A stretch of DNA of 64,000 nucleotides from a bacterium 1XD8-76. Its GTDB lineage: Bacteria; Bacillota; Clostridia; Lachnospirales; Lachnospiraceae. Each line of letters opens with the position of its first letter. Within the stretch, counting starts at the first letter, position 1. Under the pieces are notes generated by a model, which worked only from the letters and a program-made list of their open reading frames with translations, did no database searches and had not been told where the DNA came from. The position numbers and the translations under genes are program-made. This document shows positions 17,881 to 33,914 of this stretch, piece after piece. The DNA lies in the NCBI GenBank assembly GCA_003611955.1, contig RAZE01000010.1:1-64000 (forward strand). The letters are read 5' to 3'.

Positions 17881-19286
17881 GTCTTGAGGTACATGTGGAG
17901 CTTGCCACGAAAACGAAGATATTCTGCGGCTGTTCCACCGCGTTCGGCGGGGAACCGAACAGTCATACCTGCCCGGTCTGTACCGGTATGCCGGGATCTC
18001 TTCCGGTTCTGAACAGACAGGTGCTGGAGTACGCGATCGCGGTGGGACTGGCCACAAACTGTGAGATCACAAGGGACGCCAAATTTGACAGGAAAAATTA
18101 CTTTTATCCGGATAATCCGCAGAATTACCAGATTTCCCAGCTCTATCTGCCGATCTGCAGAAACGGCAAAGTGGAGATAGAGACAAAGAAGGGAAAGAAG
18201 TACGTGGGCATCCATGAGATCCATATGGAGGAGGATGCGGGAAAGCTGATCCACGATGAGAGGGAGGACTGCTCGCTGGTGGATTACAACCGCTCGGGCG
18301 TGCCCCTGATCGAGATCGTTTCGGAGCCTGACATGCGGGATGCGGAGGAAGTGATCGCTTATCTGGAGAAGCTGCGGATGCTGATTCAGTATCTGGGGGC
18401 CTCCGACTGCAGGATGCAGGAGGGATCCATGCGGGCAGATGTGAATCTGTCCGTCAGGGAAACCGGGGCGAAAGAGTTGGGGACGAGGACGGAGATGAAA
18501 AATCTGAACTCTTTCCGGGCGATCATGCATGTCATCGAACATGAGACGCAGCGGCAGATCGATCTGCTGGAGGAAGGAAAAGAGGTTGTACAGGAGACCA
18601 GAAGGTGGGATGACAACAAGGGATATTCCTACGCCATGCGCAGCAAGGAGGATGCCCGGGATTACCGGTATTTTCCGGATCCGGATCTGATGCCGGTCCA
18701 TGTCAGCGGGGAAATGCTGGAGGAGATACGGGCGAAGCAGCCGGAGTTTCGAACGGAAAAGATAGAGCGCTACAGGCGGGAGTTTGACATTCCGGCGTAT
18801 GATATCGGTATCCTTACGGAGACGAAACAGATGGCGGACCTGTTTGAGGAGACGACGGCGCTGTGCGGTCAGCCCAAGAAAGTCTCCAACTGGCTGATGG
18901 GAGAGACGCTGCGGCTCTTGAAGGAACGGAACGAAGATCCGGAAGATATCCGGTTTTCACCAGAACATCTGGCAAAGCTGATCTCCCTTGTGGACGCGAA
19001 GGCGATAACGGGAGCTGTGGCGAAGGATGTCTTTAAGAAGATGTTTGAGGAGGACATCGATCCGGAGGCTTATGTGGAGGAGCAGGGACTGAAGACCGTC
19101 AATGACGAGGGCGCACTGCGGGAGACCGTGGAAAGGGTGCTGGCGGAAAATCCGCAGTCTGTGGCGGACTATAAGGGAGGCAAGCAGAAGGCGATAGGAT
19201 TCCTTGTGGGACAGACCATGAAAGCCATGAAAGGGAAGGCAGATCCCGGGCAGGTGAACCGGATGTTGAAGGAACTGCTGGGGTAA
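17853..19286 (+). CDS. gatB: Asp/Glu-tRNA amidotransferase subunit B
   Basis: 477 aa. The N-terminal GatB/GatE catalytic region is clear (YETVIGLEVHVELATKTKIF, then CPVCTGMPG with zinc-type cysteines, and DNPQNYQISQ). The helical and YqeY-like tail ends GQTMKAMKGKADPGQVN. It phosphorylates and amidates mis-acylated tRNA. The overlap with gatA is long (28 bp) and in another frame. glnS also exists at 36.1 kb, so GatCAB here may serve mainly Asn-tRNA synthesis. Confidence 0.97.
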   Translation: MGKNYETVIGLEVHVELATKTKIFCGCSTAFGGEPNSHTCPVCTGMPGSLPVLNRQVLEYAIAVGLATNCEITRDAKFDRKNYFYPDNPQNYQISQLYLPICRNGKVEIETKKGKKYVGIHEIHMEEDAGKLIHDEREDCSLVDYNRSGVPLIEIVSEPDMRDAEEVIAYLEKLRMLIQYLGASDCRMQEGSMRADVNLSVRETGAKELGTRTEMKNLNSFRAIMHVIEHETQRQIDLLEEGKEVVQETRRWDDNKGYSYAMRSKEDARDYRYFPDPDLMPVHVSGEMLEEIRAKQPEFRTEKIERYRREFDIPAYDIGILTETKQMADLFEETTALCGQPKKVSNWLMGETLRLLKERNEDPEDIRFSPEHLAKLISLVDAKAITGAVAKDVFKKMFEEDIDPEAYVEEQGLKTVNDEGALRETVERVLAENPQSVADYKGGKQKAIGFLVGQTMKAMKGKADPGQVNRMLKELLG

Positions 19287-19313
19287 AGTATTTTTGTTGG
19301 AGGAAGAAGGAAG

Positions 19314-19946
19314 ATGAAAAAAAGAATCGTCTGTTTTGGCGACTCGAATACCTGGGGGTACAATGCGGCGGACGGTTCCCGGTATGGGGAGGAGATCCGC
19401 TGGACGGGGAGGCTTCAGAAACTTCTCGGGGAGGAGTATACCGTTATTGAGGAGGGACACAACGGAAGGACTACGGTGTGGGACGACCCCATCGAGAATC
19501 GCCTTGCGGGACTGACTTATCTGTGGCCCTGCATGGAATCCCATTCTCCGTTCGATCTGCTGATCATTATGCTGGGAACAAACGATACGAAGACATATTT
19601 TAATGTGCAGGCAAAGAGCATCGCGGACGGAGCGGGAAGACTGGTGAAACTGGCGCAGCAATCCGATTTCGGCATCGGCAAAAAAGCGCCGAGGGTGCTG
19701 CTTGTCTCGCCGGTCAGAATCGAAGAGAGCGGCAATGCATGGAATATATTCGGAAGACAGGCGGCAGAAAAATCAGAGGGCTTTTCGCAGGCCTTTCAGG
19801 AGGTCGCAGAGGAATTCGGGTGTTATTTTCTGGATGCCGCCCGGTATGCCGGCCCGGGAGAGCTTGACGGGGTACATCTGGACGAGGCGGCGCACGAGAA
19901 GCTTGCCAGTGCGGTCTATGACAAAATTAAATGTATTTTCGGATAA
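19314..19946 (+). CDS. SGNH/GDSL-type esterase or lipase
   Basis: 210 aa. The four SGNH blocks are present: nucleophile Ser in CFGDSNTWGY, Gly block, GTNDT with the oxyanion Asn, and the Asp/His pair in DGVHLDEAAH. There is no signal peptide, so it is cytosolic. The arrangement and length match the arylesterase/acyl-CoA thioesterase-like members common in clostridia. It follows gatB by 27 bp on the same strand. Confidence 0.88.
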   Translation: MKKRIVCFGDSNTWGYNAADGSRYGEEIRWTGRLQKLLGEEYTVIEEGHNGRTTVWDDPIENRLAGLTYLWPCMESHSPFDLLIIMLGTNDTKTYFNVQAKSIADGAGRLVKLAQQSDFGIGKKAPRVLLVSPVRIEESGNAWNIFGRQAAEKSEGFSQAFQEVAEEFGCYFLDAARYAGPGELDGVHLDEAAHEKLASAVYDKIKCIFG

Positions 19947-19974
19947 TTGCGGGGAATGTTCCGGGATGACGGAG

Positions 19975-20043
19975 ATGGTCAATACAGACAAAACGGGCTC
20001 CGATGCGGTGGCAAGTCGCCCTTATTTTGTCTGTATTGACCAT
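19975..20043. repeat. Long perfect inverted repeat between SGNH gene and maf
   Basis: A 19-bp arm (ATGGTCAATACAGACAAAA, 19975-19993) is matched without error by its complement at 20025-20043. The 31-nt interior can pair again (GGGC with GCCC). This is far longer than the other terminators in the window and lacks a tail of Ts on the plus strand. It may be a bidirectional terminator, a small-RNA hairpin or a short mobile repeat. Confidence 0.7.
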
Positions 20044-20113
20044 TCCCGGTGCATCGGGAGAAAATTTTGCAATGATCCGAATGCACTATAGATAAGAGGA
20101 GAAAGATATCATT

Positions 20114-20704
20114 ATGAAGAAGATCATATTGGCGTCCGCATCTCCGAGGAGAAGCGAGCTGCTCGCGCAGATCAGTCTGGAATTTACGGTGATGCCAAGC
20201 GACGTGGAGGAAAATCCGAAGAGCACGCTGCCCCAGGATATTGTGATAGAGCTGTCAAAAGAAAAAGCCAGGGATGTCTGGGGGAAGATCGGGCAAAATA
20301 ACACAGGTGACAGCCTTGTGATCAGTGCTGACACGGTTGTCAGTATAGAGGGCGAGATCCTGGGTAAGCCCAGAGATGAGGAGGATGCGGTGCGCATGCT
20401 TGGACTTCTCTCCGGAAAAGAACATCAGGTCTATACCGGCGTCACTTTGATCTGGATCGACGGGGAGGGAAAGCAGGAGGAGTACTCTTTCTATGTCTGC
20501 ACAGGGGTTTTGATGTACCGCATGAGCAGGGCGGAGATTCTGGAGTATGTTTTGAGCGGGGAGCCCATGGACAAGGCGGGTGCCTATGCCGTGCAGGGAA
20601 AGGCGGCGGCTTTTATAAAGTCCATCAGAGGCGAATACAGCAATGTGGTGGGACTTCCCACGGGGAGGCTCTACCAGGAGATGAAGGCGTGGGATCTGGC
20701 GTGA
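20114..20704 (+). CDS. maf: Maf-family nucleotide pyrophosphatase
   Basis: 196 aa. The signature SASPRRSELLAQ opens the protein, followed by ISADTVVSIEGEILGKP and the catalytic-Asp region GEPMDKAGAYAVQGKA. Maf proteins hydrolyse non-canonical or canonical nucleoside triphosphates (dTTP, UTP, or modified forms) to monophosphates and are linked to septum control. A terminator follows about 90 bp after the stop. Confidence 0.93.
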   Translation: MKKIILASASPRRSELLAQISLEFTVMPSDVEENPKSTLPQDIVIELSKEKARDVWGKIGQNNTGDSLVISADTVVSIEGEILGKPRDEEDAVRMLGLLSGKEHQVYTGVTLIWIDGEGKQEEYSFYVCTGVLMYRMSRAEILEYVLSGEPMDKAGAYAVQGKAAAFIKSIRGEYSNVVGLPTGRLYQEMKAWDLA

Positions 20705-20791
20705 GGGAACCGGAGCGTTTTTGTCACAGGTTTGCGTTTGAGGGGAAGAAGGTTTTGATCGGCTGATGATGCCGACCCCCATAGACAAGGA

Positions 20792-20822
20792 ACAGCGGGA
20801 GACGAAAGCCCCGCTGTTTTTT
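20792..20822 (+). terminator. Rho-independent terminator after maf
   Basis: ACAGCGGG (20792-20799) pairs with CCCGCTGT (20810-20817), followed by a run of six Ts. It closes the transcription unit that ends with maf. The rest of 20705-21009 holds only this and the promoter of the next gene. Confidence 0.85.
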
Positions 20823-20943
20823 GCGCTGCCCGACGGGAGAAGCACATTTTGAAGTCCATTTCACGGGAAAAACCCGATGATGTATTTGATGGATAGCCAT
20901 TTGTGGATAAAAGAGCATTAAAAAAATTAAAATGGATAGTACA

Positions 20944-20972
20944 TTGACTAAAAAATAATAAAATGTTACCAT
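20944..20972 (+). promoter_or_regulatory. Probable promoter of the GntR-ARH regulator
   Basis: TTGACT (20944-20949), a 17-base A/T spacer, and TACCAT (20967-20972) lie in AT-rich DNA. An ATAGCCAT element at 20893-20900 recurs upstream of the ARH operon at 23067-23074 and could be part of a shared operator; this is tentative. Confidence 0.45.
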
Positions 20973-21009
20973 ATTTATCAAATGAATGGGCATAGGAGAA
21001 TGGTTTGAC

Positions 21010-22782
21010 ATGGATAAAACGGATAAGAGGCAGCGGGGATCCGTCTACATGAATATCTGTTATCAGATTATCGATGACATTGTAAAGAACAAGTATTCAG
21101 TTGGCGATCTGATACCGACACAAAACGAACTCGCGGAGAAATTTCAGGTCAGCAGGACGACGATCCGCGAGGCGATCAAGGAGTTGATCCGGCGCAATAT
21201 ATTAAAAGCAGTCAAGGGGAAAGGGACTTTTGTGGTGGCAAAACCGGGGGAGCTTGCCCGGAATAGCCATACGGAGGGGTTTTCGGGAGCGCAATTCCGA
21301 AATATCGGAAGGGAAGTACATTCCAAGGTGATTCTGCTGGAAGAAATACCTGCCGACAAAAAGTTGAGCAATAAGCTGGTCGTTCCCGAAAAAAGCAGCA
21401 TTACGCACATCCGGAGGATCCGGTATGTGGATCTGATTCCGCTGTGTGTGGACGATGCGTACCTGGTGACGAAATATCTCGGCGGAATCGATTTTTTGAA
21501 GGAGGATCTCGAGACAGGCTCGCTGTATAAGATTCTGGAGGAGAAAGTCGGAATATATTTCAGGTATGTGGAGGAAAAATACCGGGCCGTGGCCTGCTCC
21601 AAGGAGTTTGCGGCCTATCTCGGCATCAGCGCCAATGAACCGGTTTTAGAGATCGAAATGATTTCCTGCGATGAATTTGGAAAGCCGGTGGAATACTGTG
21701 AAAATTATGAGCGCTCCGATCTGTTTTACACGGTGGTGCAGTTTAGAAAGACGGCGCAGAAGAAGATAAAAAAGAATATTTATGATAAAATACTGGGCGC
21801 TTTTTTGGGAGCGGCTTCCGGGGATGCGCTGGGAGCGCTGGAAAAAGAGGGGGCTCTGGATATGGAACAGGCCGGACAGTATATTGAGGCCTTTGCGGAG
21901 AGCGAGCAGATGGACGATGAGGGGGATTCCCGGCTGAAAAAAGGCAGTGTGACGGAAGCGTTCAGTCTGGCATATTTTCTGGCGCTTGAGATGGTAAAGT
22001 GGAGCGGCGGCGTGTCGGAGGACGGCGTCAGGAACGTATTCCTGAAATGGGCGGAATATTTAAATTATCTGGAATTTTCGGATGAAGAGATCCAAAATAT
22101 CGTGAGAGCCTGGAAGAGTGATGTGAGAGAGCAGGAGGTCCGGATAACGGAATCTTCCAACAGGGCTGCCATGATGATCTTTCCCATCGGGCTGGCAAAT
22201 GAGGGGAACTGCTTAAAAGCGATACAGGAGGCGGTCAATTTTACACTGCATATTTGTTCTTCGGGATCTTCGGCTGCGGCTGCGGCTGCAGTCGCGGCTG
22301 CAGTTGCCAAAGCGATGGAATCGGAAGCCGGGATGACTGACGTGCTGGAGGCAGGAGTGCGGGGAAGTGCGGAAGGTTATCGGATCAGTCTGGAGAACGG
22401 GGCAGCTGCGGGCGGCGCCTCCGTGGAAAAAAGGATACGCCTGGCGATTGAGATCGGACACAAGGGGAATTCCCCGGAGGAGGTCATGGAGGAACTCAGG
22501 GATCTGATTGGAACGGGTTATACGGCGACGGAATCCATACCCTGTGCGTTCGGGATACTGGCGGCCTGCGATGATGATCTGATCCGGGCCATAAAGATGG
22601 GAATCAGTATCGGCAATGAAACCAATATTATCACTTCGGTTATCGGGGCGATCGCAGGCTGCCTTTACGGCAGCAAAAAGATTCCCAGGGAATGGCTTGA
22701 CAGAATAAACCTTGTCAATAACTTTGATCTGGATTGGATCACCAGAAATGTGTCGGCCGAATACTATGAAATAGAGAGATAA
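21010..22782 (+). CDS. GntR/UTRA regulator fused to a catalytically dead ADP-ribosylglycohydrolase domain
   Basis: 590 aa from the ATG at 21010, with AGGAGA 12-15 nt upstream; an ATG at 20986 is in frame but has no site. Residues about 10-75 are a GntR winged helix (NELAEKFQVSRTTIREAIKE, KGKGTFVV). Residues about 85-245 are a UTRA ligand-binding domain (SSITHIRRIRYVD, PVEYCENYERSDLFYT). From about 254 the chain is an ADP-ribosylglycohydrolase-like domain opening GAFLGAASGDALGALE. The metal site is lost: the family TDD motif is T315-E316-A317, and the DDTDT motif is N536-E537-T538-N539-I540. The two free-standing ARH enzymes downstream keep both motifs. I infer a regulator in which a former enzyme domain senses substrate or product of the following operon. 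It has its own promoter and terminator. Confidence 0.88.
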   Translation: MDKTDKRQRGSVYMNICYQIIDDIVKNKYSVGDLIPTQNELAEKFQVSRTTIREAIKELIRRNILKAVKGKGTFVVAKPGELARNSHTEGFSGAQFRNIGREVHSKVILLEEIPADKKLSNKLVVPEKSSITHIRRIRYVDLIPLCVDDAYLVTKYLGGIDFLKEDLETGSLYKILEEKVGIYFRYVEEKYRAVACSKEFAAYLGISANEPVLEIEMISCDEFGKPVEYCENYERSDLFYTVVQFRKTAQKKIKKNIYDKILGAFLGAASGDALGALEKEGALDMEQAGQYIEAFAESEQMDDEGDSRLKKGSVTEAFSLAYFLALEMVKWSGGVSEDGVRNVFLKWAEYLNYLEFSDEEIQNIVRAWKSDVREQEVRITESSNRAAMMIFPIGLANEGNCLKAIQEAVNFTLHICSSGSSAAAAAAVAAAVAKAMESEAGMTDVLEAGVRGSAEGYRISLENGAAAGGASVEKRIRLAIEIGHKGNSPEEVMEELRDLIGTGYTATESIPCAFGILAACDDDLIRAIKMGISIGNETNIITSVIGAIAGCLYGSKKIPREWLDRINLVNNFDLDWITRNVSAEYYEIER

Positions 22783-22794
22783 GCATTGATTTTT

Positions 22795-22835
22795 ATAAAA
22801 AGCGCAGCGAAAAAGTAAGTAGCTGCGCTTTTTAT
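22795..22835. terminator. Bidirectional terminator after the regulator gene
   Basis: A 14-bp perfect stem, ATAAAAAGCGCAGC with GCTGCGCTTTTTAT, has A and T runs on either side. It separates the regulator from the ARH-transport operon, so the operon needs its own promoter. Confidence 0.88.
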
Positions 22836-22902
22836 AATGTAAAGCTGCTGAAAATGCAAACGCATTTAAGAAATGTCCGACTGATTATTCGGAATATAAG
22901 AA

Positions 22903-22992
22903 TTGCCATTTTATGGAAAATGTCAAGAAATGAGCAATTTTTATATAAATGGCAAGTTATATGTTGACAATATAAGTCAAAGGTGATAATAT
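22903..22992 (+). promoter_or_regulatory. Promoter and candidate operators of the ARH-transport operon
   Basis: TTGACA (22964-22969), a 17-base spacer and TAATAT (22987-22992) make a near-ideal promoter. An imperfect palindrome, AGTTATAT-n7-ATATAAGT (22955-22977), is centred on the -35 box and would block polymerase if bound. A second inverted pair, TTGCCATTT (22903-22911) and AAATGGCAA (22947-22955), lies just upstream with centres 44 bp apart. These fit repression by the neighbouring GntR-type protein, but the binding site is a guess. The remainder of 22836-23102 is AT-rich and shows no gene. Confidence 0.6.
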
Positions 22993-23102
22993 TTCTTCAA
23001 CAGAGATATTTATTATGGTAAAATTAAATAAAATGACTATAAAACTTTTTTTATATGCATAAATGAATAGCCATAATAAAATGAAAAAGATAAGGAGGGA
23101 AG

Positions 23103-24119
23103 ATGAAAACAAATGAAAAGCTATTAGGAAGCATATATGGGGCGGCCCTGGGGGATGCGATGGGTGCGCTGACGGAGACCAGAAGCGCCGAAATGATCAA
23201 GGAGGATTTTGGCGGTTTTGTGGAGACGCTGTTTTTGCCGCCGGAGGACTGTTTTGCCCACGGGATGCCTCTGGGCACGGTCACGGATGACTTCAGTCTG
23301 GCCTATTTTACAGGAGTTGAGCTCGTAAAGAGCGCGGGAGTGGTGGATGAAAAGGCGGCGAGAAATGCTGTCCTGGAATGGGCAAAGCACCCGGAATTCT
23401 TTCGCTTTGCAGGGCCGACGACGCAGGCGGCCGTACTGGAGATGGAAGGAGGAGAGAGCGTAAATGCGAAAGCATATCTGGCATGTGACAATTCAAAGGC
23501 GACAAACGGAGCCGGAATGAAGATATTTTGTGTCGGCCTCATCAATCCCGGAAATATGGACAAAGCGATCGAGGACGCCGTGACGATCTGCATGCCGACC
23601 CATCCGAGCAACACGGCGATATCGGGAGCCTGCGCTGTTGCGGCGGCAGTGTCGAAAGCGATGGAGGAGAAGGCGGGCTTAAAGGATGTGATAGAGGCGG
23701 GGATGTACGGCGCGGCCAAAGGATTTAAGCTGGGGACGGAGAAAGGGAGACGCCTGGCAGTTCCCTCTGTCGAAAAAAGAATCCGGCTGGCGGTGGAGAT
23801 CGCGGAGAGGGGAGCAGGATGGGAAGAGACTATGCTGGAACTTCGCGATGTGATCGGAGCCGGGCTGATGGCGGCGGAAGCCATACCGTGCGTATTCGGT
23901 ATACTGGCGGCAAATCCGCAGGATGCTTTTGGCGCGGTGAAGATGGGCGTAAATATCGGGGACGATACGGATACGGTGGCGACTATGGTCGGGGCGGTTG
24001 CGGGAGCCCTGTACGGGATGAGCAATCTGCCGGTGGATTATCTCAAACTGATCAGTGAGACAAACGGGCTCGATATAGAAGGCCTTGCAAAAAAAATAGA
24101 GGAAGTGTTTTACGTATGA
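23103..24119 (+). CDS. ADP-ribosylglycohydrolase-family enzyme (first copy)
   Basis: 338 aa, single ARH/DraG-type domain. Metal-binding residues are intact: T61-D62-D63 (GTVTDDFSLAYF) and D287-D288-T289-D290-T291 (NIGDDTDTVATMVG). The opening LLGSIYGAALGDAMGAL is typical. The family uses two magnesium ions to hydrolyse N- or O-glycosidic bonds to ribose, such as ADP-ribosyl-arginine or related small molecules. The setting in a sugar-import operon points to a metabolic rather than protein-modification role (inference). It is the first gene after the operon promoter, with AAGGAGGGAAG as ribosome site, and it overlaps the kinase gene by ATGA. Confidence 0.9.
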   Translation: MKTNEKLLGSIYGAALGDAMGALTETRSAEMIKEDFGGFVETLFLPPEDCFAHGMPLGTVTDDFSLAYFTGVELVKSAGVVDEKAARNAVLEWAKHPEFFRFAGPTTQAAVLEMEGGESVNAKAYLACDNSKATNGAGMKIFCVGLINPGNMDKAIEDAVTICMPTHPSNTAISGACAVAAAVSKAMEEKAGLKDVIEAGMYGAAKGFKLGTEKGRRLAVPSVEKRIRLAVEIAERGAGWEETMLELRDVIGAGLMAAEAIPCVFGILAANPQDAFGAVKMGVNIGDDTDTVATMVGAVAGALYGMSNLPVDYLKLISETNGLDIEGLAKKIEEVFYV

Positions 24120-25051
24120 GCGGAGAGAAATATGTGGTGGCGGTCGGCGCGGTCTGCATAGATGAATACTATCGAGGAGAGAGCTGGCCGGAGGAAGGCG
24201 ATAAGAGCCTGGTAAAGAGCGACGGAAGCAGAGTCGGAGGCATGATACCCAATGCGGCCTGCGTATTTGCGGGCTACGGGGTAAAGACTTATTTTTATGA
24301 TGTTGTCAATGAAAGTGACCAGACGAGAAAAATGCTGGAGGATCTTCAGTCCTACGGGCTGGATATCTCTCCGGTGGTGTATGATCCGTCTCTTCCGGAT
24401 ACGAAATGTATCATCGTACTGACAAAGGGGGAGAGGACAATACTGGTGGTGGATTCGGAGAAACCGACGCTGGAGTTGGAAGGAGAGCGCCTGGAGCTGT
24501 TTCGCAATGCGGCGTATATCTATTCGTCGGTGAGTGAGATGAAACATTTTGTCGATCCGGTGAAGCTGGCAAAGGATCTGAAAGCCCACGGTGCGCAGCT
24601 GGTATTTGATGTGGAGACGGCAAACTATTCGGGGGAGGACGAAGAACTGCTCATGTGCGCTGATATTTTATTTTATAATGAGTATGCATTTGATTATTTC
24701 AAGAGAGATAAGAGCAGTGAAGAATACATTGAGTATCTTTTAGAGAGAGGGGTAAAGATCATTACAGTCACTTACGGGGAGAAGGGAAGCAGGACTTACA
24801 CGCCGGGGGAAAGAAACCGGACAGAGGCCGCCAAAATGGAAGTGTCCGATCCCACCGGAGCGGGAGATACTTTTAACAGCTCTTTTGTGAGATGCCTTCT
24901 GGAAGGAATGGATATCCACAGAGCAGCCAGCTTTGCCAATATGGCGGCCGGTTATGCGGTGACCCGCCTTGGCCCGAAGGGAGGGGTACAGTCCGCGGAA
25001 CATGTGGAGCGCCTGCTGAAGGAAAATCCTTTAAAGCAATTGAAACAATAA
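24116..25051 (+). CDS. PfkB-family carbohydrate kinase (ribokinase-like)
   Basis: 311 aa. The N-terminal GAVCIDEYYRGESWPEEGDK and the C-terminal anion-hole motif DPTGAGDTFNSSFVRCLLEG, including the catalytic Asp, define a PfkB sugar kinase. The VGGMIPNAACVFAGYG stretch is the second signature region. Ribose, deoxyribose, a related pentose or a nucleoside is a plausible substrate given the ARH glycohydrolases around it. Translation is coupled to the preceding ARH gene by a 4-bp overlap. Confidence 0.9.
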   Translation: MSGEKYVVAVGAVCIDEYYRGESWPEEGDKSLVKSDGSRVGGMIPNAACVFAGYGVKTYFYDVVNESDQTRKMLEDLQSYGLDISPVVYDPSLPDTKCIIVLTKGERTILVVDSEKPTLELEGERLELFRNAAYIYSSVSEMKHFVDPVKLAKDLKAHGAQLVFDVETANYSGEDEELLMCADILFYNEYAFDYFKRDKSSEEYIEYLLERGVKIITVTYGEKGSRTYTPGERNRTEAAKMEVSDPTGAGDTFNSSFVRCLLEGMDIHRAASFANMAAGYAVTRLGPKGGVQSAEHVERLLKENPLKQLKQ

Positions 25052-25084
25052 GAATTTGAAGTATCAGGAAAGAGGTGATTTATA

Positions 25085-26593
25085 TTGTCGGAACCTGTTT
25101 TACAGACGAAGGGAATTGAAAAGTGTTTTTTTGGCGTCCAGGTGCTCAAGGGAATCGATTTTGAAGTCCGCAGAGGTGAGATCATGGGGCTTGTGGGAGA
25201 AAACGGAGCCGGAAAGTCCACGCTGATGAAGATCATTACCGGGCTGTATACAAACGACGGCGGAACGATTCTGTTTGAGGGAAATCCGGTGGTGTTCCCG
25301 GACCCGAGCAAAGCGCGGGATGTTGGAATATCCATTATTCATCAGGAATTCAATCTGTTTTCTCAGCTGTCTGTCGCGGAAAATATTTTTCTGGACAGAA
25401 AGGATTACAGAAACCGGTACGGTATCGTTGACTGGAAAAAGATGTACGGCGATGCGGAACGCATTCTGAGGGAACTGGGGACGGATCTGGATGTGCGCAT
25501 GCTTGTCAGACAGCTTTCGGTCAGGGAACAGCAGCTTGTGGAGATCGCAAAAGCCGTCTCCGCCAATGCAAAAGTTCTGATCATGGATGAACCGTCTGCC
25601 GCACTGCCGGACAATGAAGTGCAGAAAATGTTCCATGTGGTTAGAATGCTGAAAGACAGAGGAGTCGCCATCGTCTATATCTCGCATCGAATGAAAGAGA
25701 TCGAGGAAATCTGCGACCGGGTGAGCGTGCTGCGGGACGGCAGGAACGAAGGCGTGGTGGAGATGTCGAAAGGAAAAGTCGATGACGTGATATCCATGAT
25801 GATCGGACGCGAGATCAGCGATTATTATCCGCACAGCAGGAGATCTTTCGGCCAGGTGGTTCTGCGCGTGGAAGGTGTTTCCGGACAGGGGTTGGAGGAG
25901 ACATCTCTGGAGATAAAATCCGGGGAAGTCGTAGGTCTTTACGGCCTTGCCGGTTCGGGGACCACCGATTTTGCGGAGATCGTCATGGGACTCTCCAGAA
26001 GAAGCGCCGGGAAAGTTTTTTATAAGGAAGCGGAGGTAAAGAGGGACTCCATAAAGGCGGCGATGAGCGCCGGAATGGCTTATGTACCGCCTGACAGGCG
26101 GAAAGAAGGAATCATCGTGATGATGGATATCACACAGAATACCGTGATGGCAAATCTGAGAGCATATGAGAAGGCGGGTGTTCTTCAAAACAAAAAGATA
26201 TATGAGAAAGTGGAGGAACATGTGGAAAATCTGCAGATCAAATGCGCGGGACAGAGCCAGCAGGTACTGCGCCTTTCCGGCGGGAATCAGCAGAAAGTCG
26301 TGCTGGCAAAATGGCTGGACAGAAATCCGGGGCTTCTGATTCTGAACGAACCGACAAGAGGCGTGGATGTAGGCGCTAAGAGCGAGATCTACAGAATGAT
26401 CGATAAACTGGCGAACGAGGGACTGGGAATTCTCATGATCTCCTCGGAGGTGCCGGAAGTGCTGGGTGTCAGCGACCGGGTTGTCGTTATGTGCCGCGGC
26501 AGAGTAACAGGCGAGTACGTCAATGAAGGAATCGGGCAGGATATGCTGCTGAAAGCGGCGTCCAGCAATGCGGGAGGTGAAGAGAATGAATAA
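25085..26593 (+). CDS. Sugar ABC transporter ATP-binding protein (RbsA/MglA/LsrA type)
   Basis: 502 aa with two fused ABC domains, as usual for this class. It starts at a TTG (25085) behind AAAGAGGTGAT. Domain 1 has the P-loop GENGAGKST, Q-loop region IHQEFNLFSQL and the LSVREQQLVEIAKA signature, with MDEPSAAL as Walker B. Domain 2 has the family's atypical P-loop (GLAGSGTTDF), the signature LSGGNQQKVVLAKWL and LNEPTRGVDVG. It powers import through the two permeases encoded next. The stop overlaps the first permease gene by 8 bp. Confidence 0.95.
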   Translation: MSEPVLQTKGIEKCFFGVQVLKGIDFEVRRGEIMGLVGENGAGKSTLMKIITGLYTNDGGTILFEGNPVVFPDPSKARDVGISIIHQEFNLFSQLSVAENIFLDRKDYRNRYGIVDWKKMYGDAERILRELGTDLDVRMLVRQLSVREQQLVEIAKAVSANAKVLIMDEPSAALPDNEVQKMFHVVRMLKDRGVAIVYISHRMKEIEEICDRVSVLRDGRNEGVVEMSKGKVDDVISMMIGREISDYYPHSRRSFGQVVLRVEGVSGQGLEETSLEIKSGEVVGLYGLAGSGTTDFAEIVMGLSRRSAGKVFYKEAEVKRDSIKAAMSAGMAYVPPDRRKEGIIVMMDITQNTVMANLRAYEKAGVLQNKKIYEKVEEHVENLQIKCAGQSQQVLRLSGGNQQKVVLAKWLDRNPGLLILNEPTRGVDVGAKSEIYRMIDKLANEGLGILMISSEVPEVLGVSDRVVVMCRGRVTGEYVNEGIGQDMLLKAASSNAGGEENE

Positions 26594-27530
26594 GATACTG
26601 AAAAGACAGGAAACGCTTATCGCCATATTTTCCCTGCTTGTGTTTGCCGTGTTCTCGGTCTGCTCGGATAACTTCTTCACGGCCACCAATATCCGGCTTT
26701 TGTTCCAGCAGTATGCGGTAAACGGCATCTGCGTGCTGGGAGTCGGCATCGTTGTTATTTTAGGGGGAATCGATCTCTCGGCGGGCTCCATTCTGGCTAT
26801 ATCGGGAGCGCTGGGCGGCACCCTTGTAAAAATGGGGGTTCCGACGATCTTATCCATACTGGCGAGTGTTCTGACAGGTATGTTTTTGGGCGTTGTAAAC
26901 GGTACGATCATCACAAAACTCCATGTCCCTGCGATCATCGCAACGATTGCCACCAATTATGTGTTCCGGGGAATACTGGTGATCATCACGGGCGGGTTCT
27001 GGGTAAACAATTTCCCGAAATCGTTTACATCCATGGTGACGGGACGGTTTCTCGGGTTATCCAATGTCTTCTGGATGGCCATGGTATTTTTGGCGGTGCT
27101 GACATTTGTGCTGCACTATACCAATTTCGGAAGGAAGATCTATGCGGTTGGGACCAGTGCCGAGACAGCGGAAAAATGCGGCATCAATGCGGACAGGATC
27201 TATATCCTGGGGTTTGTGATATGCGGCGCGATGATCGGCTATGCGGCGATGATGTATGCCGGGCTGTATGGGGCGATCAGTACGTCGGGAACCGGGGCGT
27301 CGCTCGGGACGACGGTGTTGGCGGCAACTCTCGCGGGCGGCATCAATTTTAACGGGAGGGGTACGCTGATCGGCGGTACGATCGGGATGTTTCTGATCAC
27401 GATCATCAATAACGGCCTGATCCAGATGAGAGTCTCGGAATACTGGATCAATGCCGTGACCGGGGCGATCATTCTGCTGGCGCTGATCCTGAATGCGATG
27501 AACGCGAAAAATGCAGGGAGGGACATGTGA
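26586..27530 (+). CDS. Sugar ABC transporter permease 1 (RbsC family)
   Basis: 314 aa from the ATG at 26586, inside the end of the ATPase gene. It is a hydrophobic protein with eight to ten helices and the family pattern GIVVILGGIDLSAGSILAISG, then NGTIITKLHVPAIIATI and the GGINFNGRGTLIGGTIG loop that contacts the ATPase. With the second permease it forms a heterodimeric channel as in LsrCD, rather than the RbsC homodimer. It overlaps the next gene by ATGA. Confidence 0.94.
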   Translation: MNKILKRQETLIAIFSLLVFAVFSVCSDNFFTATNIRLLFQQYAVNGICVLGVGIVVILGGIDLSAGSILAISGALGGTLVKMGVPTILSILASVLTGMFLGVVNGTIITKLHVPAIIATIATNYVFRGILVIITGGFWVNNFPKSFTSMVTGRFLGLSNVFWMAMVFLAVLTFVLHYTNFGRKIYAVGTSAETAEKCGINADRIYILGFVICGAMIGYAAMMYAGLYGAISTSGTGASLGTTVLAATLAGGINFNGRGTLIGGTIGMFLITIINNGLIQMRVSEYWINAVTGAIILLALILNAMNAKNAGRDM

Positions 27531-28480
27531 TGAGAAAATTTCTGGCTGATTACATAAAAAAAGACGGAAACAGGAACGTTGTACTTCTGATCGTGTATCT
27601 GGTGATCCAGACGGCTGCATTTTCCATCTTATTGCCGAATTTTATGACTGTGTCGAACTTTCAGAACCTGATGCGCCAGAGTGCGGAACTGGGGATGGTG
27701 TCCATTCCGCTGGCGATCGTGCTGATGACGGGAAATATCGATCTTTCCATCGGCTCGGTGATGGGAGTGTGCGCGATTTCCATGGCGAGAATGCTGAGAG
27801 CGGGGCTTCCGATTCCGGCGGCGGTACTCTTTACGGTGTGTATCGGAGCGCTGGCCGGCAGTCTGAACGGATTCTGCGTCGCGAAACTGCACCTGGACGG
27901 TCTGGTGGCCACGATAGGGACGCAGGTTATGCTCAGAGGATTCTGCTATATTCTGACAGGAGGGAGATCCGTGAGCGGGCTTCCGTCGGAATTTACGAGG
28001 GTGTCCAAAATGTATGTTCTGGGCGTGCCGATCAGCTTTTTGCTGATGCTGGCCATATTCGCCGTCGCTATTTTTGTAATGCAGAAGACGAGGATCGGCA
28101 TCCAGGTTCACGCAGTGGGTTACAATGCCAGGGCGAGCAGATTCTCGGGTATAGAGGCGGATAAGATAAAATTTAGACTGTTTGTCATGAGCGGATGCGT
28201 TGCGGCGATCGCTTCCATGTTTATGCTGATGCGTTTTGCGAGTGCGGAGTCCGAGTTTGCAAACGGGTACGATACGGACACGCTGGTGGCGATCCTGTTA
28301 GGCGGCATCAATATTGCCGGTGGTTCCGGCAATATGCTGGGGGCTTTTCTGGGTCTGATCACAGTGGCGATTTTGAAGAACGGTCTGAACCATATCGGAA
28401 TGACGGCGACTTATCAGCAGTTTATCGTGGGGCTGCTCATCGTGATCTCCGCTGTGAGATTACCGAAAAAACGTGACTGA
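27527..28480 (+). CDS. Sugar ABC transporter permease 2 (RbsC family)
   Basis: 317 aa. Paralogous to permease 1: VLMTGNIDLSIGSVMGVCAI, NGFCVAKLHLDGLVATIG and LLGGINIAGGSGNMLGAFLG. Two different permeases point to the LsrCD/RhaPQ branch, agreeing with the LsrB/RhaS-like binding protein that follows. It begins inside the stop of permease 1. Confidence 0.94.
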   Translation: MMRKFLADYIKKDGNRNVVLLIVYLVIQTAAFSILLPNFMTVSNFQNLMRQSAELGMVSIPLAIVLMTGNIDLSIGSVMGVCAISMARMLRAGLPIPAAVLFTVCIGALAGSLNGFCVAKLHLDGLVATIGTQVMLRGFCYILTGGRSVSGLPSEFTRVSKMYVLGVPISFLLMLAIFAVAIFVMQKTRIGIQVHAVGYNARASRFSGIEADKIKFRLFVMSGCVAAIASMFMLMRFASAESEFANGYDTDTLVAILLGGINIAGGSGNMLGAFLGLITVAILKNGLNHIGMTATYQQFIVGLLIVISAVRLPKKRD

Positions 28481-28527
28481 TCAGTCTCTATGGACTGTCA
28501 AAATATTATACAAAAAGGAGAAAAATT

Positions 28528-29607
28528 ATGATGAGGAAAAGAAGGAACAAGGTACTGGCAATCGTGTTGTGCGGCGGGCTGATGGCAGGCATTCTGAGTG
28601 GCTGCGGAGCCGGGCAGGAAGCATCTCAGGACACGGCGCCCGCGGCGGAAGAGACTGCGGACGCGGCGAAGGAGAATGCGGAACAGGGGGAGGCCGGCGG
28701 GAAGTCTCTGTTTCTCTGCCCGAAATGTGTGGGTTATGACTACTGGACTTCCTGTGAGACAGGAGCGAAAGCAGCGGCCGATGAACTGGGATATGATCTG
28801 ACATTCAACGGACCGGCGGCGACGGACTCCGCACAGCAGATCACCATGATGGAAGATGCGATGACCCAGGGGATCGCGGGACTCGGCATCTCGGCAAACG
28901 ATGCGGATGCCGTGATCGATACGATCGCGACGGCGAAAGAAAAAGGCATCTACACGGTAGCGTTTGACAGTGATTCCCCGAATTCCGACAGAGACTACTG
29001 TGTGATTCCCGAGTCGGATGCGGCGATGGGGGAACAGCTGGCAGAGATGATCGCACAGGAGATGGGCGGTGAAGGAAAACTGGCGTTTATGGTGGCTTCC
29101 CTGAGCGCTGAGAACCAGGTGTCCAAATTCGAAGCGGCGGAAGCTTATATCCATGAAAACTATCCCGATATTGAGATCGTGGCAACGCTGTGCTCCGATG
29201 ATGAAAATGAGCATGCGTACGAAAACGCTCAGACACTGCTTTCCACATATCCCGATCTGAAAGGTATTCTGGGCTTTGCGGGGGCGGAAGCACCCCAGGC
29301 GGCAGCGGCGGTAGGACAGGCGATCGACAACGGAGACCTTGAGATGGGACAGATCTGCGTGACGGGGATCGGCTTCCCTTCCCAGTGCAGAGAAGGATTG
29401 AAGAGCGGCGTGCTGAAACAGATCTTAAGCTGGAATCCCCAGGAGACAGGGAAAGTGACAGTGTATGTTCTGGATGCGCTGCTGAATGGAAAAACCATAG
29501 AAGAAATTGAGATCGACGGGATCGAACTCCGGCTGGACGGTTCCTATGTATATCACGGATGTGTTTTACTGACACCGGAAAATGTGGATGATTACAATTA
29601 TGCGTAA
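28528..29607 (+). CDS. Periplasmic-type sugar-binding lipoprotein (LsrB/RhaS-like)
   Basis: 359 aa. The signal peptide with lipobox ends GILSGC near residue 26, followed by an Ala/Glu-rich linker. The type I binding fold shows TSCETGAKAAADELGYDL, FNGPAATDSAQQITMMEDA, TVAFDSDSPNSDRD and VYVLDALLNGKTIEE. These match the AI-2 (LsrB) and rhamnose (RhaS) binding-protein group more than ribose or galactose binders. The ligand-loop segment CPKCVGYDYWTSC contains three cysteines where LsrB has non-cysteine residues, which is odd. It captures the ligand outside the cell for the two permeases. Confidence 0.9.
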   Translation: MMRKRRNKVLAIVLCGGLMAGILSGCGAGQEASQDTAPAAEETADAAKENAEQGEAGGKSLFLCPKCVGYDYWTSCETGAKAAADELGYDLTFNGPAATDSAQQITMMEDAMTQGIAGLGISANDADAVIDTIATAKEKGIYTVAFDSDSPNSDRDYCVIPESDAAMGEQLAEMIAQEMGGEGKLAFMVASLSAENQVSKFEAAEAYIHENYPDIEIVATLCSDDENEHAYENAQTLLSTYPDLKGILGFAGAEAPQAAAAVGQAIDNGDLEMGQICVTGIGFPSQCREGLKSGVLKQILSWNPQETGKVTVYVLDALLNGKTIEEIEIDGIELRLDGSYVYHGCVLLTPENVDDYNYA

Positions 29608-29634
29608 AGCGTTTGGAAATTCAGGAGATAAAAC

Positions 29635-30141
29635 ATGAAAAAAATAAAAGCGGTACCTGTTACAAAAGAGAATTTTGCACCTTATGGAAGATATTTTAAT
29701 TTTTTTGATATTCCCGCCAGAGTCAGTGAAGATTTTACGGCGTACACAAGCGTTTCGGAACTGGCAGATGAACCGATGAACCTCGGCATAACGGTATGCA
29801 GGGGAGCAAATCAGTTTACATCGGTGAGTATGGAGCGGCATATGCTGACGGAAGAACCCCAGTTTTGCGGCGACGGGGCGATGGTTCTGACGGTGGCGGA
29901 CAGCGACCCGGAAAAATATCCGGAGGCGGAAGATGTAAAAGCGTTTCTCATGAAACCGGGGGATGTCGTGGTACTTGCAAAAGGAATATGGCATGACGCA
30001 AACCATGGGACGGAAGAAGGAAAGGATGTTTTATATTACTTTATGGCGACAAATAAGGAACCGGATAATCTCCGCGAGATCGAATGGGTAAAGATATCTC
30101 CGGAACCGGTCCTGGTGGAAGTAAGAGGTGAAGAAAAATGA
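29635..30141 (+). CDS. Ureidoglycolate lyase-fold (AllA-like cupin) protein, first copy
   Basis: 168 aa. The opening VPVTKENFAPYGRYFNFFD is the family hallmark (xPLTxxxFAPYG). The cupin barrel follows, with VLTVADSDPEKYPE and the exit motif MKPGDVVVLAKGIWHDANHG. AllA proteins release urea from ureidoglycolate. In a sugar-transport/ARH operon the substrate may instead be another ureido or hydroxy-acid compound. It overlaps a paralogous gene by ATGA; the pair may form a heteromer. Confidence 0.75.
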   Translation: MKKIKAVPVTKENFAPYGRYFNFFDIPARVSEDFTAYTSVSELADEPMNLGITVCRGANQFTSVSMERHMLTEEPQFCGDGAMVLTVADSDPEKYPEAEDVKAFLMKPGDVVVLAKGIWHDANHGTEEGKDVLYYFMATNKEPDNLREIEWVKISPEPVLVEVRGEEK

Positions 30142-30611
30142 CGATAAAAGCGATACCGCTCACGGAAGAAAATTTTGCACCCTATGGGAAATATGTAAAG
30201 GTGATGGAAGGCGAGGGAAGAACGGGAGAGGGAGGATGGAGAGCCTGGATGAGCGAGGATGTATGCATGGACGTTCCTGCGAACATCGGATTTACACAGG
30301 TGGACGGAATGCCGCTTGTGGTGGATTCCATGGAAGTACACAATCTGACAACGGAATTTCTCGCCTGCGGCAATAAACCGATCGTGCTTGCCGTGGCAGA
30401 TTCCGATCCTCACGGAAAGGGCGCCGAAGCATCCGATATCCGGGCCTTTGTCCTGCAGCCGGGAGAATTTGTCGTGATGGACAAAGGAATATGGCATGAC
30501 GCCTGCAGAAGCGCCGAGGGAGATGAATGCTATTATTATTTTATGGCACAGAATCTGGAAGTGCCGGAGTTTGTTCCGATCATAGGAGAAGCTGTCAGGG
30601 TGGAATTATAG
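30138..30611 (+). CDS. Ureidoglycolate lyase-fold (AllA-like cupin) protein, second copy
   Basis: 157 aa and clearly paralogous to the preceding gene: IPLTEENFAPYGKYVKVM, VLAVADSDPHGKGAEA and LQPGEFVVMDKGIWHDACRS. Both copies keep the GIWHDA histidine that would coordinate ligand or metal. Tandem AllA-type genes with a 4-bp overlap are unusual, since known AllA is a homodimer. The role is inferred from the operon only. Confidence 0.75.
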   Translation: MTIKAIPLTEENFAPYGKYVKVMEGEGRTGEGGWRAWMSEDVCMDVPANIGFTQVDGMPLVVDSMEVHNLTTEFLACGNKPIVLAVADSDPHGKGAEASDIRAFVLQPGEFVVMDKGIWHDACRSAEGDECYYYFMAQNLEVPEFVPIIGEAVRVEL

Positions 30612-30650
30612 GGTCTGGCAGGAAACAGAAAGAAACGAGGAATTATTAGG

Positions 30651-31682
30651 ATGAATCAGAGTAAATACAGCAAGATTTTGGGGAGCCTGGTCTATTGCGC
30701 GCTGGGCGATGCGATGGGAGCGGTCACGGAAAATCTGACGTTTGACCAGATCAGGGAAATGTATAACGGCGGCCTGCGCGAACTGGCAGAACCCGGCAAA
30801 ACCGCTTTTGCTTACGGAAACAAGGCGGGGCAGATCACGGATGATTTTTCCCAGACCTATCTTCTGACGGAGGAGATCATCAAAAATAACGGAGTAATAG
30901 ATCAGGAGTGCGTGGAGAATATGCTGATCCGCTGGTCGGGTATCCCGAGGTATTTCAATCGGTTTGCGGGACCAACCACCCGGAGCGCTATCGACGTGCT
31001 GAAAGCGAAGAAGGAGGGCAGGGATTATAGGCCGGAAGGAGTGATCGACTATGCCAGACAGGCCACAAACGGCAGCGCGATGAAGATATCTCCGGCGGGG
31101 TTCTTTAACCCATGCGATGTCGATAAAGCGATCGAGGATGCCGTGCGCATCACGCAGGTGACTCATGATAACCATCTGTCCATCTCGGGAGCCTGCGCGG
31201 TGGCAGCGGCGATCAGCAGTGCGTTCGAGGAGGACGCCACATTGTACAGCGTTATGCAGGCGGGAATTTACGGCGCAAAGCGCGGGGAGGAGATAGGGAA
31301 GGAAAGATCCAGGGTCGTAGGAGGTCCCAGCGTGGTGACAAGGATGGATTATGCGATCTCCGTTGCCTTAAGTTCCGTCACGAAAGAAGAAAAGTTGAGA
31401 CAGATCTATGAGATCGTAGGGACGGGACTTCACATATCGGAAGCCGTTCCGGCGGCCTTCGGTATTATAATGATCTGTGAGGGGAATGCCTGGGACAGTG
31501 TCTGCGAAGCGGTGAATGTGGGCTATGACACGGATACGGTGGCGGCGATAACCGGTTCTGTGGTGGGAGCGCTGGAAGGCGCGGAGAAAGCGGATCCCGC
31601 TCTGATCCATGTCATGGATCGGGAAAATGATATCCGGATAGAGGAACTGGCGAGGAAAGCGGCGGAGTGCCTCGGCGATTAA
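30651..31682 (+). CDS. ADP-ribosylglycohydrolase-family enzyme (second copy)
   Basis: 343 aa. Metal ligands are intact: T63-D64-D65 (QITDDFSQTYLL) and D293-T294-D295-T296 (NVGYDTDTVAAITG). It is collinear with the first ARH gene (shared KAIEDAVRI, GACAVAAA and PSVVTRMDYA-type segments) but well diverged, so the two enzymes may act on different bonds or anomers. It is the last gene of the operon; a terminator hairpin follows 15 bp after the stop. Confidence 0.9.
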   Translation: MNQSKYSKILGSLVYCALGDAMGAVTENLTFDQIREMYNGGLRELAEPGKTAFAYGNKAGQITDDFSQTYLLTEEIIKNNGVIDQECVENMLIRWSGIPRYFNRFAGPTTRSAIDVLKAKKEGRDYRPEGVIDYARQATNGSAMKISPAGFFNPCDVDKAIEDAVRITQVTHDNHLSISGACAVAAAISSAFEEDATLYSVMQAGIYGAKRGEEIGKERSRVVGGPSVVTRMDYAISVALSSVTKEEKLRQIYEIVGTGLHISEAVPAAFGIIMICEGNAWDSVCEAVNVGYDTDTVAAITGSVVGALEGAEKADPALIHVMDRENDIRIEELARKAAECLGD

Positions 31683-31696
31683 CAAAATTTTTTACT

Positions 31697-31726
31697 AAGC
31701 CTCCTGTCTTAAAAACCGGAGGCTTT
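31697..31726 (+). terminator. Terminator of the ARH-transport operon
   Basis: AAGCCTCC (31697-31704) pairs with GGAGGCTT (31718-31725); the T run after it is short. Confidence 0.65.
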
Positions 31727-31773
31727 GCTGGCTTTTGCGCCAAAAATTTATTACTTTTTGCATAATCTGACGG

Positions 31774-31802
31774 TTGAATAAGTCGGGCAAATATATTATG
31801 AT
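31774..31802 (+). promoter_or_regulatory. Promoter upstream of the DUF6106-like gene
   Basis: TTGAAT (31774-31779) and TATGAT (31797-31802) have a 17-base spacer. The predicted start of transcription lies within the palindrome at 31806. Confidence 0.55.
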
Positions 31803-31805
31803 AAT

Positions 31806-31847
31806 CTGTAATACAATTTTCTTAAAGAGATTGTATTACAGTTTTTT
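31806..31847 (+). promoter_or_regulatory. Palindrome/hairpin with T tail at the transcript start
   Basis: CTGTAATACAAT (31806-31817) and its perfect complement (31830-31841) enclose 12 nt and are followed by TTTTTT. Because it sits between promoter and gene, it could be an attenuator hairpin or a repressor operator (GntR/YtrA-like sites also contain TAATACA). Confidence 0.5.
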
Positions 31848-31879
31848 CATATTTTATTACAGATGATTGGAGGTGGCGT

Positions 31880-32377: not shown

Positions 32378-32408
32378 CGGGATTTTTTTATATTTTACGA
32401 AACTATAA

Positions 32409-33914
<1,506 letters not shown>

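Follow-up and report, generated by a model that had tools for sequence, protein, structure and literature searches.

What becomes of an enzyme domain that has been joined to a transcription factor and has lost its catalytic residues, with intact copies of the same enzyme encoded next door? This question is raised by positions 21010-22782 of a 64,000-nucleotide stretch (hereafter the window; positions 1 to 64,000 of contig RAZE01000010.1, assembly GCA_003611955.1) of the Lachnospiraceae bacterium 1XD8-76, where a single gene encodes a GntR-type winged helix, a UTRA domain, and a degenerate ADP-ribosylglycohydrolase (ARH) domain. Results of our analysis make it fairly probable that the product is a GntR/UTRA repressor that carries a dead ARH domain, was born by fusion with a duplicate of the ARH gene of the adjacent operon, and controls both its own gene and that operon, which encodes the intact enzyme ARH1.

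The fused gene and its domains

The open reading frame analysis of the window indicates a frame of 598 codons at positions 20986-22782 (+). It is uninterrupted in the genome of the window (G000) and in two further genomes, G008 and G001, the fusions of which are 98% and 84% identical to that of G000, respectively. The start at 21010, proposed in an earlier reading of the letters alone (hereafter the sequence-only reading), is likelier than that at 20986, since ATG is kept at the former position in all three genomes and is preceded, ten bases upstream, by AGGAGA (20994-20999), while G001 has ATA at the latter position. The gene and its domains are as follows, with residues numbered in the 598-amino acid (aa) frame:

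21010..22782 (+): fused regulator gene, 590 aa from ATG 21010, with the frame extending back to ATG 20986
21052..21234 (+): GntR winged-helix DNA-binding domain (PF00392, 64.8 bits; residues 23-83)
21307..21726 (+): UTRA effector-binding domain (PF07702, 120.1 bits; residues 108-247)
21796..22692 (+): degenerate ARH domain (PF03747, ADP_ribosyl_GH; residues 271-569, profile 1-287 of 287, 104.5 bits vs. the cut-off of 26.2)

A GntR winged helix followed by UTRA, with both PF00392 and PF07702 above their cut-offs, is the domain order of the HutC (UTRA) subfamily, and the third domain matches the ARH family profile over its full length. The view that one protein joins a winged helix, a UTRA domain, and a complete ARH-like domain is thus upheld by the Pfam matches, the single frame, and its presence in three genomes. 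Matches to Pfam and NCBIfam are to parts of the fusion protein: of the 25 NCBIfam families shown, not one scores above its cut-off or extends over the full protein. As the same uninterrupted frame recurs in G008 and G001, and the ratios of nonsynonymous to synonymous substitution rates (dN/dS) are well below 1, the fusion seems unlikely to be an assembly artefact.

Loss of catalytic residues

The metal motif of ARHs has been described as E ... [T/S]DDT ... DTDT (Rack et al., PMC6309922). In human ARH3, metal is coordinated by D77, D78, D314, and D316, and the substitutions D77A, D78A, D314A, and D316A each impair the hydrolysis of poly(ADP-ribose) (PAR) (PMC8141533). Residue numbers of ARH3 were mapped onto the fused domain by alignment, which places the following replacements in the latter:

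21844..21846 (+): Lys287 where the motif has Glu (Glu25 in ARH1)
21952..21960 (+): TEA for TDD
22615..22629 (+): NETNI (NETSV in G001) in place of DDTDT

Seven ligand positions were counted (Glu, T-D-D, and D-x-D-T); the motif Glu and the two Thr we take, from the motif, to be metal ligands as well. All three fusions have K ... TEA ... ETNI (ETSV in G001), with six of the seven positions changed and only the first Thr (of TDD) kept. The alignment with the two enzymes of the neighbouring operon agrees with the replacements of TDD and DDTDT described in the sequence-only reading, as well as with its statement that these paralogues keep the motifs (TDD and DDTDT in ARH1, TDD and YDTDT in ARH2). 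The statement that all metal-binding acids are lost goes too far, as two Asp residues, the equivalents of D77 and D314 of ARH3, have become Glu; the equivalent of D78 is Ala, and that of D316 is Asn (Ser in G001). Changes beyond the two motifs turn GPT into DEE (DQE in G001) and TNG into SNR (SNK in G001); in addition, a His is replaced by Cys, and the last motif Thr by Ile (Val in G001).

In a motif table of 75 ARH rows, [T/S]DD and D-x-D-[T/S] are kept in 65, the other ten being the three fusions, five members of an unfused TDA lineage, and two partly degenerate rows. Invariant columns were defined on 27 intact-looking rows of the nearer subfamily, which leaves out 48 of the 75 (three fusions, seven degenerate or partly degenerate rows, 27 distant or background rows, and 11 YegU-like or other rows, namely E. 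coli, G132, and the nine loci L112-L120). A column was scored as lost if either G000 or G001 differs in it; one Gly is lost in G001 only. Of the 32 invariant columns, 17, in many cases glycines, are kept in the fusions and 15 are lost; the latter comprise 13 of the 17 active-site columns vs. 2 of the 15 others (Fisher p 0.0005, with the active-site classes being our choice). Judged from these residues, the fused ARH domain is very probably catalytically dead.

Predicted fold and selection

The degenerate domain appears to have kept the ARH fold, as the sequence-only reading had it. In a model of the 590-aa protein, residues 261-580 make up 32 blocks of ten residues, and in 25 of these the mean predicted local distance difference test score (pLDDT) is at least 80; the best Foldseek matches of the domain are MJ1187 and ARH3, with template modelling (TM) scores by target length of 0.79-0.83 in the first eight rows.

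The dN/dS values were obtained from the comparison of G000 with G001 by the NG86/YN00 methods, with dS of 0.6 to 3 depending on gene and method. They are 0.049/0.069 for the GntR helix, 0.014/0.028 for UTRA, which is the lowest in the fusion gene, and 0.087/0.131 for the pseudo-ARH domain, which is its fastest part. The values for comparison genes are 0.069/0.058 (ARH1), 0.092/0.101 (PfkB), and 0.026/0.035 (ARH2). The protein identity of the ARH domain between G000 and G001 (77.7%) is also the lowest among the parts compared. The ratios indicate that the pseudo-ARH domain is under purifying selection.

Origin of the fused domain and other degenerate ARHs

In a tree of 52 rows, the three fused domains are placed together (100/100) and, with a long stem, are grouped with ARH1 and the ARH of G005 (94/87); a tree calculated without the 42 motif columns and without four background rows (48 rows) recovers the latter group at 94/88. 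The closest match to the fused domain in its own genome is ARH1 (42%). Most likely, as far as these comparisons indicate, the fused domain is a diverged duplicate of the operon's own ARH.

Degenerate ARHs occur also in an unfused form:

L070:9576-10610, L106:8650-9690, L107:7898-8944, L123:1691-2755, L124:2339-3541: unfused degenerate ARHs with TDA, GMT, and xETSA or DETCA

The genes of this TDA/xETSA lineage (G046, G776, G781, G1209, and G1286) are directly beside an intact ARH gene in all five members found. Their products have Ala at the D78 position, Glu at D314, Ser or Cys at D316, and Ala at T317, and keep the motif Glu, the D77 position, and the His. Trees that hold the fused and the unfused lineage together give p-values of the approximately unbiased test (p-AU) of 0.056 (52 rows) and, without the motif columns, 0.022 (48 rows), with long branches present; these values speak, though not decisively, against a common origin, and the Asp to Ala and Asp to Glu changes common to both lineages are apparently independent and convergent. 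Possibly, the TDA/xETSA pseudo-ARHs form one half of a mixed complex with the adjacent intact ARH. A partly degenerate third type of ARH, with GNAMG, SYD, DQA or DRA, and NDSDT, is encoded beside an intact ARH at L071:8901-9932 and L072:9086-10117.

Promoter-like sites and a candidate operator

The regions upstream of the fusion gene and of ARH1 share a 16-base box, and each contains a promoter-like site:

20944..20972 (+): promoter-like TTGACT-17-TACCAT upstream of the fusion gene; a consensus match in a stretch conserved in three genomes
20958..20973 (-): first copy of the box TATGGTAAMATTWWAT, which overlaps the -10 of the preceding site and has its core present in three genomes
22793..22837 (+): hairpin after the fusion gene with 16-bp perfect arms and a 13-base loop; a probable terminator
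22964..22992 (+): promoter-like TTGACA-17-TAATAT upstream of ARH1, its second hexamer preceded by TG; a largely conserved consensus match
23014..23029 (+): second copy of the box TATGGTAAMATTWWAT, the start of which is 22 bases past the -10 of the preceding site

In the whole 4.02 Mb genome, the box TATGGTAAMATTWWAT is matched exactly at these two sites and nowhere else; two more places differ from it by one mismatch, and reading the pattern backwards gives no match. G008 and G001 preserve both sites, except for one base after the core at the operon site of G001. As the box overlaps the -10 at the fusion gene and is located 22 bases past the -10 at ARH1, a repressor could act at either position, so that autoregulation together with control of the operon is the natural reading. 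This suggests that the box is a candidate operator for both.

A third copy of the 12-bp core at 589-600 was set aside, as it lies inside an open frame. Inverted arms TTGCCATTT ... AAATGGCAA are present at window positions 22903-22955; AAATGGCAA is seen by eye also upstream of unfused regulator genes in G023 and G798 (L073 and L109) and is a possible second operator element. The hairpin at 22793..22837 is present in G000 and G008, while G001 differs there; it is absent from the terminator scan, which allows loops of 3-8 bases only. Neither the Rfam search of positions 19000-33000 nor the tRNA scans of the window gave a match.

The neighbouring operon and hints of its substrate

Downstream of the fusion gene, the following genes were assigned:

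23103..24119 (+): ARH1, an intact ARH, from sequence motifs and Pfam
24116..25051 (+): PfkB-family carbohydrate kinase (PF00294, 130.7 bits; the best NCBIfam score, to ribokinase, is below the cut-off)
25085..26593 (+): ATPase of a sugar ATP-binding cassette (ABC) transporter (the best NCBIfam score, to RbsA, is below the cut-off)
26568-27530 and 27527-28480 (+): two permeases (PF02653)
28528..29607 (+): sugar-binding protein (the best NCBIfam scores, to RhaS and LsrB, are below the cut-offs)
30651..31682 (+): ARH2, a second intact ARH, 1 kb beyond the gene of the sugar-binding protein

Hints of the substrate come from the company of ARH genes elsewhere. In G005 (L069:4268-8262), the ARH gene is beside genes for two PNP_UDP-type proteins, SIS, and PfkB, including a second PfkB, and in G781 (L107:7131-7904) the pair of ARH genes is beside a gene for an Indigoidine_A protein. 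A gene annotated as aminoimidazole riboside kinase is part of such company on a Salmonella plasmid, as is UshA on a Yersinia plasmid. These neighbourhoods suggest a riboside or nucleoside substrate.

Distribution of the fusion and its unfused relatives

The fusion was found in three of nine genomes of the genus (G000, G008, and G001), some of which are 85-87% complete. In all three, the ARH domain is degenerate, which answers in the affirmative the question of the sequence-only reading whether the acid losses are conserved; fusions with intact TDD/DDTDT were not found among the matches listed. No further GntR-UTRA-ARH fusion was present among the matches listed in overlapping sets of 195, 397, 392, 299, and 9 genomes, the absence being not exhaustive, as at most 3 to 6 candidates per genome were scored in the searches of the first four sets. 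A species-wide contig scan, which is sensitive to close relatives only, yielded two records, those of G008 and G001. Of 72,556 plasmid records, six match at least 80% of the fusion protein, always as two pieces with 28-31% identity; separate ARH and GntR genes are annotated in five of these records, and one is without annotation there. The scan of viral contigs for ARHs gave nothing but alignment rows, and that for GntR-UTRA gave none.

Nine long ARH proteins, eight of them taken from 30 loci, were scanned with Pfam, which revealed other companions or none, and no helix-turn-helix. Other ARH fusions seen in the class are with a uracil-DNA-glycosylase-like domain (L037:1471-2931), with SseB and a macrodomain (L039:451-2445), with a macrodomain (L053:919-2415), and with a microbial poly(ADP-ribose) glycohydrolase (PARG) domain (L061:550-2595). 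A published survey of companion domains in 761 genomes gives 76 for GntR (PMC5882156); 'UTRA' and 'ADP' are absent from the main text of that paper, and the survey cannot tell on this architecture.

Unfused regulator and ARH genes are met side by side. In G023, a GntR-UTRA-like gene is located 24 bp before an intact ARH gene, which is followed by genes for PfkB and an ABC transporter; this order recurs in G798, from the same genus, and in G1214 a GntR/UTRA-like gene adjoins an intact ARH gene, with PfkB beyond. A GntR/UTRA-like gene was detected (BLAST at 1e-6) in 14 of 22 stretches around ARH genes from fusion-free genomes, these stretches being 12.9 to 19 kb each, taken from better matches, and not all independent. 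A like neighbourhood is that of E. coli yegTUV/yegW, as well as those of the one Salmonella enterica plasmid and the one Yersinia frederiksenii plasmid examined. As regulator and ARH genes are often neighbours elsewhere, the fusion joins frequent neighbours.

In G001 (L035:1757-4766), the interval from gatB to the fusion gene contains two genes that resemble, by eye, a restriction-modification M and S pair; in the window, this interval is occupied by other genes (19314-20704). At 986-1930, the window also encodes a 314-aa protein that is, by eye, HNH-type endonuclease-like.

Proposed mechanism and the possible roles of the dead domain

The explanation that we favour, as stated at the outset, is that of a repressor with a dead ARH domain. 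As the tree and the gene order suggest, the regulator gene of an ARH-kinase-transporter operon would have been joined to a second copy of the ARH gene from that same operon, and this copy would then have lost its active site while keeping its fold. A homodimer of the product may bind the box TATGGTAA(A/C)ATT in two places, the promoter of its own gene and that of the ARH1 operon, and repress both, until a nucleoside- or riboside-like inducer, imported by the transporter of the operon, binds to UTRA and releases the repressor. UTRA would probably be the main sensor, and the dead ARH domain an accessory regulatory module. Its foremost candidate role, to which we give somewhat less than an even chance, is that of a second binding site for a related compound via the remodelled pocket. 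Ranked second, with a smaller but still considerable likelihood, is protein-protein contact, in which self-assembly or binding of ARH1/ARH2 would let the amount of enzyme feed back on repression. A passive scaffold ranks third and is rather improbable.

Several points weigh against this explanation. The DNA binding, repression, and ligand of the fusion are proposed from sequence and gene context, and the substrate of the operon is guessed from the company of its genes. There are only two effectively distinct fusion sequences, and with dS in the range given above the substitution rates are rough. A group of the fused domain and ARH1 alone is compatible with the data but not established by them (p-AU 0.374). 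The pattern of the box was written from its own two sites, which leaves its rarity and its conservation as evidence, and the promoter-like sites are consensus matches. In the structural model, the N-terminal half is poor (pLDDT below 50 at residues 60-162 and 203-255), and 10 of the 13 rows behind the model are ARHs, which favours an ARH-like result for the C-terminal part. Finally, the two diverged fusions are identical at 57 of 76 positions within 4 residues of active-site columns vs. 205 of 263 elsewhere, while the same comparison gives 75 of 76 vs. 220 of 265 for ARH1 (p 9e-5) and 76 of 76 vs. 249 of 270 for ARH2 (p 0.006); windows of 6 and 8 residues give a like outcome. This is suggestive, for two effective sequences, of a former pocket without privileged conservation in the fused domain, and with the pocket constraint lost, a scaffold or interaction domain fits as well as a sensor.

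To these points may be added the possibility, raised in the sequence-only reading, that the two parts are made as separate proteins. In-frame start codons near the junction are GTG 202, ATG 225, GTG 235, GTG 250, GTG 251, TTG 274, ATG 293, ATG 309, and GTG 322, of which those up to codon 251 would keep the ARH domain whole. By eye, GTG 202 has GGAGG at a long spacing of about 14 bases upstream, and no Shine-Dalgarno sequence is seen before GTG 250 and GTG 251. ATG 293 is preceded, 8 bases upstream, by the purine run GAGGGGG; a start there would remove the first helix of the ARH domain together with its GDALG motif, and the translation of G001 has no Met at that position. A separate ARH protein from an internal start seems unlikely from these features, with the reservation that GTG 250/251 would leave the ARH domain whole.

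Alternative explanations differ in what they make of the dead domain. It could itself be the main ligand sensor and bind ADP-ribose or the substrate of the operon, uncleaved, in its old pocket. The retention of the fold with the loss of catalytic residues, next to intact paralogues, would fit such a conversion, for which the NrtR/BtAraR regulators are a precedent (PMC4666351), and a dead ARH can bind well, as human ARH3 D77A, which has lost one Mg, binds ADP-ribose 23-fold more tightly (PMC8141533). However, the fusion carries the equivalent of D314E, which costs human ARH3 its MgB, the ion that matters for binding, and with D314A the affinity falls 44-fold (PMC8141533); moreover, the aligned Gly of GPT and the His are also lost, the surroundings of the pocket are no better conserved than the rest, and an effector domain with lower dN/dS, UTRA, is already present. 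We regard this possibility as tentative, and the description of the locus in the sequence-only reading as a classic enzyme-to-sensor conversion finds no support in a pocket without special constraint and in UTRA having the lowest dN/dS.

It is likewise possible, though doubtful, that the dead domain is essentially a module of protein-protein contact, which pairs with itself or with ARH1/ARH2 so that the abundance or occupancy of the enzymes modulates repression. The loss of pocket constraint in a domain that still models as an ARH is in line with this, and so is the position of the unfused degenerate ARHs beside an intact one in each of the members found, as might be expected of subunits of mixed complexes; it is, on the other side, an explanation built from sequence. 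A related proposal, which we put forward with similar caution, is that of a resident decoy: the pseudo-ARH domain may compete for the substrate or pair with the intact enzyme, and one protein would then compare the inducer, through UTRA, with the enzyme or its substrate.

That the fusion is a recent accident and the ARH domain a tolerated passenger heading for loss is improbable. Its presence in only three of nine genomes of the genus, some of them incomplete, and the lowest identity among the parts of the protein would be expected of a passenger, but dN/dS is 0.087-0.131 over the domain, there is no stop or frameshift in three genomes, and the losses are concentrated at the active site with 17 of the 32 invariant columns, many glycines among them, kept. 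A bifunctional trigger enzyme, with an ARH domain that still hydrolyses something by means of Glu in place of Asp, is very improbable, since the Glu at two of the four motif aspartates and the kept Thr of TDD stand against six changed ligand positions, a motif Glu turned into Lys, and the impairment of human ARH3 by each of the four alanine substitutions.

Comparison with known systems

The repressor with a dead ARH domain, our preferred explanation, has partial counterparts. E. coli YegW (GgaR) is reported to repress yegTUV, which contains an ARH gene, and to have ADP-glucose as its effector (PMC10819704). There, too, the gene of a GntR-family regulator has genes for an ARH (yegU) and a putative sugar kinase (yegV) nearby, but the regulator and the ARH are separate proteins, unlike in the fusion, and YegU keeps TDD and GDTDT. 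The yegTUV transporter is one predicted symporter, while the operon described here has an ABC system. YegW presumably contains a UTRA domain.

In the NrtR family, including BtAraR, the companion domain of the transcription factor is also a hydrolase fold without catalytic residues: its Nudix domain binds the ligand and is the effector domain (PMC4666351). The Nudix domain is N-terminal and the only effector domain in NrtR, whereas the ARH fold of the fusion is C-terminal, behind UTRA, and no Nudix family is among the Pfam matches of the fusion at E up to 0.001. By its way of working, and in this respect only, the NrtR family may be considered the nearest kind by analogy. The MocR/PdxR subfamily resembles the fusion in that a GntR helix is fused to an enzyme-derived domain, which has an aminotransferase fold and takes the place of UTRA. 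Pfam reveals no aminotransferase family in the fusion, and MocR-type models match its helix only, far below the cut-off.

Among ARHs, the vertebrate pseudoenzyme ADPRHL1, studied for its part in heart development, resembles the fused domain as a family member that lacks residues needed for catalysis (PMC10601310). The TDA/xETSA lineage shows residue losses parallel to those of the fusion, but is not fused and is located elsewhere in the tree. ADPRHL1 is not known to have a DNA-binding domain. In agreement with the sequence-only reading, which knew of no such regulator, no description of the GntR-UTRA-ARH architecture was found among the titles and starts of abstracts listed in searches of open-access full texts.

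Implications

Regulators built from dead enzymes are already known, as the NrtR family exemplifies, and one derived from an ARH was not found described in the literature searched. If the fused domain does act as a resident decoy, ARH domains of this bacterial phylum would repeatedly have exchanged catalysis for regulation, the TDA/xETSA pseudo-ARHs being a convergent case. The locus is a well-placed test case: the adjacent operon encodes intact ARH paralogues, relatives still have the regulator and the ARH unfused, and several of the same losses are seen, apparently by convergence, in another ARH lineage. As far as gene context can point, bacterial ARHs encoded near a regulator, a PfkB kinase, a transporter, and nucleoside-phosphorylase-type proteins may serve riboside metabolism rather than the de-ADP-ribosylation of proteins.

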